Assembly: GCA_029907715.1 (NCBI GenBank)
Contig: JARYLI010000004.1
Coordinates: 62,001-126,000, forward strand
From: Methanothrix sp.
GTDB lineage: Archaea; Halobacteriota; Methanosarcinia; Methanotrichales; Methanotrichaceae
DNA: 64,000 nucleotides
Direction of reading: 5' to 3'
Shown here in pieces: positions 37,168 through 55,532 of the stretch; within the stretch, counting starts at the first letter, position 1; every line of letters starts with the position of its first letter. The translations under genes and the position numbers were made by a program. The notes beneath the pieces are model-generated. The model was not told the origin of the DNA, made no database searches, and saw only the letters and a program-made list of their open reading frames with translations.

Positions 37168-37374
37168 GGTGGTCAAGCAATATCTGCATGTATATAGAAC
37201 CTGTCGCTGAAGATGCGTTTCCTGGAACACCATTCTCAATCACACATCGCTGGTTGGACGGGGCACCAACCTGACCAACGCCATCACAGCTGTAAAGGGT
37301 ATCAGGCCTCGAAGGCACGAACGACGATCGCATGGCGTGCTTTATGCGCAACATCCGGACGCATTAACGGCAGA
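37168..37374. promoter_or_regulatory. Promoter region of the synthetase/oxidoreductase operon
   Basis: TATA box on the minus strand at about 37190-37197 for the regulator-first operon. The rest, up to the mobile element at 37375, shows no gene. ACGGCAGA at 37367-37374 is the left target duplication of that element. Confidence 0.6.
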
Positions 37375-37498
37375 CGCTCTTATCCATATTATGACTTGCC
37401 CATAGAAGTACTGGTTCTGCTATGCATTCCTGGTGAATGAATAAGTGCGTTCAGCAACCACATTGTATGACCCACAAGTTGCCAATCACATAAGAGCG
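37375..37498. mobile_element. MITE, intact copy A
   Basis: A 124-bp non-coding element bounded by perfect 9-bp terminal inverted repeats CGCTCTTAT and ATAAGAGCG. It is flanked by a perfect 8-bp direct repeat ACGGCAGA (37367-37374 and 37499-37506), the mark of transposition. The inner part is shared with the copies at 55 kb; 27 bases (37439-37465) are identical with 55247-55273. No transposase is encoded, so it must have been moved in trans. Confidence 0.88.
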
Positions 37499-37545
37499 AC
37501 GGCAGAAATCTCACTGCTGTGATCGTTGAACTCTAAGCTCTCCCG

Positions 37546-39966
37546 TCATTCGCCTGCCTCTGCCACGCCCCTGAGGAAATGGCCTGAGGTGATCCCTCCC
37601 ATGGCCATTCGCCGGACCATGCTTTTGAGCTCCTGTATCTCTGAATGCTCTCTGACAGCCCTCGCGTAGATCTCGGTCATCTCTCTGGCATACCTTCCGG
37701 TCCTCCATCTGGCATCTATTGCCACAGAATCCACACCCATCGAGGAGATCTGTGGAATGTGATCAAGCAGGCAGGTCTCCACGCTGTTCAGTATGTTCGT
37801 CACACCTGTGGAATCTCTCCTTACGGGAAAGACGCGCTTGCGGTCCCCGATCGCGCAGACATCGCCCTCGGAGATGAGCCTGTCCTCGGTCACTGCGATC
37901 ACGATGTTTCCCTGGGCGATCACCTCAAGATCAGGTCTGTTGCGGAGAGCAGCGATGGAGGAGATCTGGCTCGCGGAGAGCTCAGGTGAGAGCGTCAGGG
38001 CTCTCGCTCTGGAGAGCATGCACACGCTCAGCGAGTTCCAGATGTTCAGCCCCTGGCCTCCGAAGATCTCGCATCCGCATCGCTCTGCGGCCACAAGGGC
38101 GCCCAGGTTCTCCACCATGATCCCATCGACTGAAACATCGCGCAAAATGTTCCCGGCCATGCACAGAAAACGATCCCTGGTGATCCGGGGCCACTTCCAG
38201 ACCAGCTCTGCGCGTCCCTCACAGAGATCGGAAGCCTTCTCCAGGAGAGCGGCCAGATCATCTGCGATCAGCGGCTCGAAGTACACCCTATCTGCGCCGC
38301 CTGTCAGCGCTCCTTCGATAACCTCCAGGGTGTCGGCGTAAACCGATATCCTCAGCCTTTCAGCTCTCCTCTCAGCCCTCTCAAGGGCTGGTTTTCCTCC
38401 TCCGATGCACTCTCTTTTGTGCGCATCCACAAGAGCGGCCTCAGCAGCCCTGAGAATATCTCTTCTGAGCTGATTGAGGTTCGCCGGCGTGGTGTAAAGG
38501 CCCCCTGGATAATCGATTACCATCTCCCTGAAGACGAACTGAGTGCCCCCGGTTCTCCGGAGGTGAGACTCTATCTGTGAAACGCTCAGGGGAAGCGTTC
38601 TCGCCGACTCCATGGCAGTGCTCCCTCTCACAGAGACCTTTATCCGTCCAGATGGTCCATCAAGATACACATCCGCAACCGGCACACCATTGTCAAAGGA
38701 TATCCGCAGATCGAGCGGGATCGGATCTCTGCCCTTTCTGATTATCCTATCAGCATCATCCCTCAGCCTGGCGGATCGCGTTATGTAAACATCCATTCCT
38801 GCCCGGGCCCCCTCAGGCACCCTGAGCCTGAACACGCCGCCCCTCAAATGGATTCTCTCTCTCACAACGAATCCGATCTCCTCCCCTCCTGAGCGGAGCA
38901 CGACACCATCTCCAGGCTCTGGCAGGATCCCGCCTGTGTGAGATACGACTGCCACATTGCCCGAGCAGCGCAGGATCCTGCCCGCAATGACGCCCCTGTT
39001 GTCCGGCATCTCCCTGCCCATCACATCCGATGCGCCCAGGATGTATCCCTCTGTAAACCCCCTGTTGAACGCGAGCGCGAGCCTCTGGATCTCCCTCTCA
39101 TCCGGGGCCCATTCGCCTCGAGCTATGGCATCAAGAGCATCTCTGTAAACCCCAGTCACAACGGCAACGTACTCTGCAGACTTCATCCGACCCTCGATCT
39201 TGAGCGCGTCGACGCCGGTTGCGACGATCTTATCGAGGGAGGGATACGTGCAGAGATCACGGGTGGACAGGAGATATCCTTCCATTCCTGTCTTTCTCAG
39301 ATCTCTCAGCCTCCCGTATTCGTCCGCAGCGCCTCGGAGCAGGGTGTAGGGCTTCCTGCACGGCTGGGCGCACATCCCGCGGTTTCCGCTCCTCCCGCCC
39401 ATCGATGACGAGAGGAGACACTGTCCTGAGTAGGAGTAGCAGAGCGCGCCATGGACAAAGACCTCAAGCCCGACGCCCAGATCATCGGAAACTATTTTAA
39501 TATTTTTTATCTCGTCAACAGACAGTTCTCTGGCAAGCACCACACGTTTCAGCCCATTCCTCGCGGCCCAGACGACTCCCTCTGTGCTGTGGATCGTCAT
39601 CTGGGTTGAGGCATGAAGCTCCAGCTCCGGGACGATCTCCCTGGCGAGCCTGACGACTCCTGGATCCTGCACGAGTATTGCGTCTGCGCCGATCTCGCAG
39701 AGCTCTGTGAGGAGATCCCCCAGCTCATCAATCTCCCCATCATGAACGAGTGTGTTCACAGTCACATACACCCTCACACCTCTCGAGTGAGCGTAATCCA
39801 CCGCCTCCTCCAGGCTGGGAAAGTTCTCAGCGAACATCCGTGCGCTGAATCGTTTTCCTCCAAGGTAGACAGCATCAGCTCCAGCTGAAACTGCCGCGAC
39901 CAGCGCATCCCAGGAGCCTGCAGGGGCCAGAAGCTCCGGGATCTCATTCGATCTCTTCAAACGCAT
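37546..39966 (-). CDS. Peptidase U32 family protein, long form
   Basis: An 806-residue member of the U32 (collagenase-like) family, with a long C-terminal part as in the RlhA/YhbU type. N-terminal barrel: PELLAPAGSWDALVAAV, ADAVYLGG, QDPGVVRLAREIVPELELHA. Signature and cysteines: VFVHGALCYSYSGQCLLS then GNRGMCAQPCR, likely an iron-sulfur site. Studied bacterial relatives hydroxylate tRNA or rRNA bases, so an RNA-modifying role is more likely than proteolysis. A second barrel-like repeat (about 530-800) contains QGLNIWNSLSV. The gene stands alone. Confidence 0.85.
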   Translation of the reverse strand: MRLKRSNEIPELLAPAGSWDALVAAVSAGADAVYLGGKRFSARMFAENFPSLEEAVDYAHSRGVRVYVTVNTLVHDGEIDELGDLLTELCEIGADAILVQDPGVVRLAREIVPELELHASTQMTIHSTEGVVWAARNGLKRVVLARELSVDEIKNIKIVSDDLGVGLEVFVHGALCYSYSGQCLLSSSMGGRSGNRGMCAQPCRKPYTLLRGAADEYGRLRDLRKTGMEGYLLSTRDLCTYPSLDKIVATGVDALKIEGRMKSAEYVAVVTGVYRDALDAIARGEWAPDEREIQRLALAFNRGFTEGYILGASDVMGREMPDNRGVIAGRILRCSGNVAVVSHTGGILPEPGDGVVLRSGGEEIGFVVRERIHLRGGVFRLRVPEGARAGMDVYITRSARLRDDADRIIRKGRDPIPLDLRISFDNGVPVADVYLDGPSGRIKVSVRGSTAMESARTLPLSVSQIESHLRRTGGTQFVFREMVIDYPGGLYTTPANLNQLRRDILRAAEAALVDAHKRECIGGGKPALERAERRAERLRISVYADTLEVIEGALTGGADRVYFEPLIADDLAALLEKASDLCEGRAELVWKWPRITRDRFLCMAGNILRDVSVDGIMVENLGALVAAERCGCEIFGGQGLNIWNSLSVCMLSRARALTLSPELSASQISSIAALRNRPDLEVIAQGNIVIAVTEDRLISEGDVCAIGDRKRVFPVRRDSTGVTNILNSVETCLLDHIPQISSMGVDSVAIDARWRTGRYAREMTEIYARAVREHSEIQELKSMVRRMAMGGITSGHFLRGVAEAGE

Positions 39967-40049
39967 TCCGTATCAGTTCTGCCACGACATCATTAATATG
40001 CGTATCCCGCGCTGTCTCCGGAATCCAAGACAATCTCCGTACAGTGCCT

Positions 40050-40062
40050 GGAAAGGTTAATA
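40050..40062 (+). promoter_or_regulatory. Promoter of tRNA-Arg
   Basis: GAAAGGTTAATAA: a purine-rich BRE followed by a TATA-like box about 30 bases before the tRNA. The same AAAGGTTAATA pattern precedes fae-hps at about 50054. Confidence 0.6.
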
Positions 40063-40088
40063 ACAGAGGGAGCACGAGGTGATCACGC

Positions 40089-40176
40089 GGGCTCGTGGGG
40101 TAGAGGATATCCTAGCGGGCTTCGGAGATCTCATCGAGGAGACCCGCTGACCTGGGTTCGATTCCCAGCGAGTCCG
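40089..40176 (+). tRNA. tRNA-Arg (anticodon TCG) with 16-nt intron
   Basis: Acceptor stem GGGCTCG/CGAGTCC (one G-U pair), D arm GGGT/ATCC, T arm CTGGG-TTCGATT-CCCAG, discriminator G, no encoded CCA. The anticodon stem GCGGG/CCCGC is interrupted by an intron at 40126-40141, between positions 37 and 38. The precursor folds into an exact bulge-helix-bulge: CUUC/GAGG central helix, bulges GGA and AGA, intron hairpin GAU-CUC-AUC. Splicing yields the loop CTTCGGA with anticodon TCG. A GTTAATAAC box lies about 31 bases upstream and TTTT follows directly. Confidence 0.9.
40126..40141 (+). other. tRNA-Arg intron, canonical 37/38 position
   Basis: Sixteen bases (AGATCTCATCGAGGAG). Cut sites predicted after the second base of each 3-nt bulge (GG^A and AG^A), as archaeal splicing endonuclease requires. 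Confidence 0.85.
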
Positions 40177-40547
40177 TTTTGTGACATGCTGCTTCTTCCG
40201 GTTGTGCATGCATTTTGAGATCGGCATGTGGACCGGGAGTCATTATAGTCTGGTCCTTTGCATCACTTCATGTAAATCCATTTAAAATCTAGCGGATATC
40301 TCGCACTTCATAGATTATTTTTTTTTTTAACATAATATTATATCAACTTATGTGGAATACTATAATAACCGGATCCCTGAGAAACCATTCGGCGATCCGG
40401 GCTCACAACTTTTCTTTCGCAGGATGCCGCATCCTGCTGGTGCAGTAGCACACTCCCGCAATGCAGGGGCAGCGCCCGCCTTTATATCCTTTATATACTA
40501 CCTTTATATACCCCTACGTTTAAAAACCTCTCCAGGAGATGCGCGAT
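40177..40547 (+). promoter_or_regulatory. Spacer with terminator T-run and the tbp promoter
   Basis: Holds an 11-base T run (40318-40328) that can end the tRNA transcript, then the tbp promoter. Three TTTATAT cores follow each other at 40481, 40490 and 40503, and GTTTAAAAAC stands at 40518. The third core lies about 26 bases before a plausible start site at about 40533. No gene seen in the spacer. Confidence 0.65.
40318..40328 (+). terminator. Eleven-base T run
   Basis: A run of eleven T residues between tRNA-Arg and tbp, with AT-rich surroundings. Fits archaeal intrinsic termination. Confidence 0.45.
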
Positions 40548-54753: not shown

Positions 54754-54926
54754 GGTGAAAAGATGCAGCTCATATTTTAAAAACCCTCTCCCCTCAGATG
54801 TGCTCGGAAGCATGCTGCATCTGCAGTGGTCTCATTCAGCTGATTCAGCGATGCAGCAGATGGTGATGGAACAGGGGCCATGCTTCCCGCGTTAGGTCAA
54901 CGTCCGCTCTTCCATATTATAGAGAA

Positions 54927-55101
54927 CGCTCTTATCCATCTGATAACTTGCCCGAAGAGGCATCCAGTCCTGCTACGCGCTCGTTTCGACTTATCTTCGA
55001 CTGCGTCGAAGAGTTTCGACGAAGTCGAAGGCCTGGCGAGCGAATGAGTGCACTCAGCAACCGGCCTGCATGACCTCCAAGTTGCTGAATACATAAGAGC
55101 G
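54927..55101. mobile_element. MITE, copy B, carrying a hairpin insertion
   Basis: Terminal inverted repeats CGCTCTTAT (54927-54935) and ATAAGAGCG (55093-55101) are perfect, and the element is flanked by a perfect 8-bp duplication ATAGAGAA (54919-54926 and 55102-55109). It is about 50 bp longer than copy A because the TCGAC double hairpin sits in the middle (about 54981-55031). Confidence 0.87.
54993..55030 (+). repeat. TCGAC double-hairpin repeat, copy 2 (inside MITE B)
   Basis: Two adjacent palindromes with TTCGAC/GTCGAA stems and 3-nt loops, 36 of 38 bases identical to the reverse complement of 4822-4859. It lies within MITE copy B, so it inserted after that copy formed or travelled with it. 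Confidence 0.85.
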
Positions 55102-55532
55102 ATAGAGAATTACCAAAAGACTGCTTTTTATATAAAACATCACCTGTACTTAGTGACAGGGGCCGATCGTAGAAAAAGGGGTTAGTAGGAATACTCCATA
55201 AATCTGCCCGTAGAAGCACTGGGCCAGCCATGCATTCCAGGTTAGTGAATAAGTGCGTTCAGCAACCACATTGCACGACCCGCAAGCTGCCAAACACATA
55301 AGAGCGATCAAAGTCAACACAGACTTCCATAGCATGGGTACATGAGCCTGGCATTATTGGACATCCAGAGTCCAGTCCCTGCCGCATGTCGAATTTTATG
55401 TGAATGGGATTAAACAGACATTATTAAAATTATATTTTTATAATTAACTACTGAAGCTCTTACTCCATCCGTCACTGAGAATAGGGATAAAACTTAATAC
55501 AGTTGATGACATCTTAATTTCTGGTGGTGCTT

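Follow-up and report, generated by a model that had tools for sequence, protein, structure and literature searches.

Copies of the element in the window

The window, a stretch of 64,000 nucleotides from a Methanothrix sp. contig, holds three copies of a miniature inverted-repeat transposable element (MITE), all on the forward strand and all recovered with a covariance model built on 41 copies. Copy 1 (37375 to 37498) is 124 bp long, too short for a gene, and shares 94% identity with copies from elsewhere. It begins CGCTCTTAT, finishes ATAAGAGCG and is flanked on both sides by ACGGCAGA, the left target duplication being at 37367 to 37374 and the right at 37499 to 37506. The imperfect 24 bp terminal inverted repeats are at 37375 to 37398 on the forward strand and 37475 to 37498 on the reverse strand. 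Copy 2 (54927 to 55101, 175 bp) belongs to another subfamily; its ends are identical to those of copy 1, and it stands between two ATAGAGAA sequences, at 54919 to 54926 and 55102 to 55109. Its extra length comes from a palindromic TTCGAC...GTCGAA insert of about 50 bp in its interior, placed by direct reading at 54984 to 55031 (approximate limits). Copy 3 (55192 to 55306) is degenerate, with a worn left end and no target duplication.

The preliminary description had reported the first two elements with their shared ends, and its positions are exact to the base, as are the perfect 8 bp duplications that it described. Its 9 bp terminal repeats are correct for the outermost bases of what is really an imperfect inverted repeat of about 24 bp. 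Across the aligned copies this repeat reads CGCTCTTATCCATNTGATRACTTG / CGCTCTTATGTNNNNRGCAACTTG, with the outer 9 bp nearly invariant. Most copies are 120 to 125 bp long, which leaves no space for a transposase gene. Mean column identity in the alignment is 80%, and nearest-neighbour identity among sampled copies has a median of 96% and reaches 99%.

Copy number and distribution

The genome-wide search for the end pattern that had been proposed earlier was conducted on the 2.0 Mb genome to which the window belongs. The pattern CGCTCTTAT-N90-120-ATAAGAGCG, with perfect 9 bp ends 108 to 138 bp apart, has 69 matches, and its reversed control has none in the same genome. The covariance model gives at least 150 matches in this genome (G000), making up about 0.9% of its 2 Mb. 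In the relatives there are at least 149 in G005, 135 in G004, about 101 in G002, 47 in G001 and 22 in G003, so the earlier reading did not founder on a want of further copies. Each of the six genomes of the genus carries the 24 bp end pattern. A search of 44 more genomes from the family Methanotrichaceae did not find it, and the MITE family is therefore restricted to the genus Methanothrix. No copies were found in viral contigs or in plasmids. At one place in G002 (C1:1640000-1658000), MITE copies recur three times at an interval of exactly 6885 bp, and their flanks are identical; this is a tandem triplication that carries one MITE per unit.

Mode of insertion

A total of 106 distinct copies were extracted from all fetched loci. 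Exact 8 bp duplications flank 60 of these and another 15 have one mismatch, giving 75 with one mismatch or fewer. When flanks were swapped between copies as a control, exact 8 bp matches occurred at a rate of 0.000095 (0.0095%), and no other duplication length is preferred among the 106. The target pattern is two-fold symmetric, WWWW-N4-WWWW, with the A/T positions being the two bases outside the duplication on each side together with its first two and last two. The copies avoid genes and are mostly intergenic, since only 18 of 98 (18%) interrupt an open reading frame of at least 120 codons, compared with 83% of points drawn at random from the window.

Unoccupied sites were sought in relatives, as had been suggested, and the site of copy 1 is one of them. 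The orthologous spacer in G002 is GTTAACGGCAGGAATTTCAG, which is element-free and has a single copy of the target (ACGGCAG). In G005, about 93% identical to the window around this site, the same spacer holds a different MITE of 171 bp. This one has a perfect duplication of its own, GCAGGAAT, which begins 3 bp from the position of the window's duplication. A different element with a separate perfect duplication 3 bp away means that two independent insertions have occurred in one spacer, in G000 and in G005. The 171 bp MITE (L187:4542-4712) also has a palindromic TTCGAC...GTCGAA module like that of copy 2. Copy 2 itself is absent from the corresponding spacer in G005, although that spacer is too rearranged to define an exact empty site. 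A MITE of G002 at 143295 has as its counterpart an unoccupied yet diverged place within 39,715 to 40,196 of the window.

Empty and occupied sites are also found within one genome. A repeat of about 200 bp in the window's genome has empty copies with one TTGGACTT and two occupied copies in which TTGGACTT is duplicated, the MITE being in opposite orientations in these two. This landing-pad repeat (L037:1869-2067, approximate limits; also in L013, L014, L034, L004 and L038) has inverted ends GTCATCGGTTAAG / CTTAACCGATGAC and is possibly another MITE family.

The copies have thus been shown to insert as separate units into short targets flanked by A+T, duplicating 8 bp. The reading of the locus as a product of transposition is borne out by the many genomic copies, the 8 bp duplications and the empty sites in relatives. 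Short, gene-less, bounded by inverted repeats, dispersed, with a duplication of fixed length and with empty sites, the family is like a MITE in all these respects.

Constant length and a mostly intergenic location would also be expected of an immobile repeat, conserved between genes as an RNA or a regulatory sequence, a reading to which we give hardly any credence. Target duplications, nested copies and empty sites speak against it, and as an account of the origin of the copies they refute it. There is also no sign of a structured RNA, since a compensatory change is seen at just one of the 16 pairs predicted by RNAalifold and Rfam has no match. Single copies may have taken on a regulatory role later.

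Relics of a probable transposase source of the IS1595 family

The window's genome has a single IS1595-family transposase gene, plus a second fragment elsewhere. Searching at the DNA level with the IS1595 element located relics in G000, G001, G004 and G005 and no trace in G002 or G003, the other two of the six genomes. An intact IS1595 transposase gene was not found in any of the six genomes of the genus. The relic transposase has a zinc-binding N-terminus and a DDE_Tnp_IS1595 domain, and two pieces of its reading frame give consecutive matches to NF033547, the model for the IS1595 family; as these pieces sit in different frames, the gene is broken. IS1595 relatives are absent from the viral contigs.

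The ends of the relic are sharp, CGCTCATCACCTCATAACAACTTA and CGCTCATATTGATTTAGCGACTTA. The left end is set sharply at CGCTCATCACCTCATAACAACTTATTTATTC by independent remnants whose upstream DNA is unrelated, and the right end, from two copies, is CGCTCATATTGATTTAGCGACTTATAC and CGCTCTTATTGATTTAGCGACGTATAC. These ends were scored with a weight matrix combining both MITE ends, with 126,986 window positions outside MITEs as background. The best background score is 0.3. The full-length relic scores 5.7 at its left end, and the right ends score 20.0 and 16.1. A diverged left end (L178) scores -1.6, a value also reached by one background position, and a worn right end (L163) has no score with the matrix. 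In addition, a MITE subfamily in G002 carries CGCTCATAT, as does the IS1595 right end. The duplication size agrees as well, 8 bp being usual in the IS1595 family (PMC8101967).

MITE and relic resemble each other only in the outermost 24 bp, where identity is about 60-70%, and the relic may therefore be a relative of the true parent, not the parent itself. No IS1595 copy with an 8 bp duplication of its own could be demonstrated in the genomes examined, and no ends could be defined for three distant, intact IS1595 relatives (L165, L166 and L168). Across 623 kb of fetched loci, no element longer than 455 bp has paired MITE ends and an 8 bp duplication with one mismatch or none. At L171, L182 and L167, nesting of the IS1595 relic and the MITE in each other is seen in both directions. 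The IS1595 relic also contains, at about L169:1380-1480, a short element GTGAGGATTCC...GGAATCCTCAT flanked by GTAT; this is probably a MITE of the IS5-family insertion sequence of L078 and L100, as the end motif is the same.

Other families make 8 bp duplications, and one of them could have mobilized the MITE, the IS1595 likeness then being coincidental. A candidate is a 988 bp IS5-type insertion sequence of G002, a genome with about 101 MITE matches yet no IS1595 trace. This candidate likewise makes 8 bp duplications, but its ends (TGCTGTGTTGGATAA) are unrelated to those of the MITE, as are those of two other G002 types, an 869 bp and a 534-aa insertion sequence, whereas no background position scores as high as either end of the IS1595 element. 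On the transposase families searched, mobilization by another family is considered unlikely. The 988 bp sequence is found in nine near-identical copies in G002 (L068, L072, L076, L080 and L082-L086), most with 8 bp duplications. ISL3 is ruled out as the parent family, its transposase not having been found in the genus.

An IS5-family gene at L078 also drew attention as a parent, since MITE ends of left and right type, 1269 bp from each other, bracket this transposase remnant. This insertion sequence has its own ends, GAGGATTCCTAT, flanked by two MITE halves, and the same sequence at L100 has the ends GAGGATTCCTAT without MITE ends. The locus is really a MITE split by a decayed IS5-family element (NF033581-like; L078:1168-2436), and the odds that its gene is the parent are negligible. 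Named records with related IS5 genes are from Methanosaeta/Methanothrix metagenome assemblies.

Proposed mechanism and present mobility

The transposase source is most likely an insertion sequence of the IS1595 family, as judged from the related ends. The preliminary description had posited a transposase acting unseen in trans and had proposed a search for an insertion sequence whose ends match. The former would most likely belong to the IS1595 family; for the latter, related ends are found on both sides of the IS1595 element, but only in decayed copies. It is thus very probable that the MITE family inserted with 8 bp duplication, having been moved in trans by the IS1595-family transposase of an insertion sequence that has since decayed. 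A DDE transposase of this family, coming from an insertion sequence roughly 1.02 kb long whose ends are related, would bind the MITE inverted repeats, excise or copy the element and join it to a target cut with an 8 bp stagger. That insertion sequence now carries frameshifts or truncations in each Methanothrix genome in which it is found.

Because this source is broken wherever it is found, the MITE is probably immobile or nearly so today, and its movement has probably largely stopped, unless another transposase recognizes the ends. With identities of up to 99%, part of the family has spread fairly recently, and a transposase source outside the assemblies examined is therefore conceivable. We doubt that the MITE is still moving through an unrelated or unknown transposase, with no partner of its own kind and with hot spots precise to 3 bp across species.

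Significance and comparison with known systems

The Methanothrix MITE is a new, unusually abundant archaeal family, its copy number being well above 34, the maximum in a table of archaeal MITEs (PMC3852290). Searches of the open-licence literature yielded no account of any MITE from Methanothrix or Methanosaeta, although an earlier listing in ISfinder is possible. It appears to be a non-autonomous family that has outlived its transposase source. Its copies offer presence/absence markers for Methanothrix strains, and they contribute unannotated intergenic variation to a major genus of acetate-using methanogens.

A survey of 30 archaeal genomes tied a MITE of Haloquadratum walsbyi to ISHwa6, of the IS1595 family (Table 4 of PMC3852290). 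By description it resembles the family reported here, being archaeal, with an IS1595 partner, 165 bp long, with 25 bp inverted repeats and 8 bp duplications. It differs in its host, in having 7 copies rather than at least 150, and in having an identified partner where Methanothrix has only relics (PMC3852290). The same survey found 19 orphan 'MITE-like' families, which share inverted ends, in some cases direct repeats, and have no autonomous partner found; the Methanothrix MITE is unlike these in that its likely partner family can be traced through decayed relics (PMC3852290). The eukaryotic kin of the IS1595 family is Merlin (PMC8101967). The likeness to the IS1595 family lies in the 8 bp duplications and in the zinc-binding N-terminus and DDE_Tnp_IS1595 domain of the relic transposase, whereas the Methanothrix MITE differs from both in being gene-less, and its ends start CGCTC where GG has been described for Merlin (PMC8101967).
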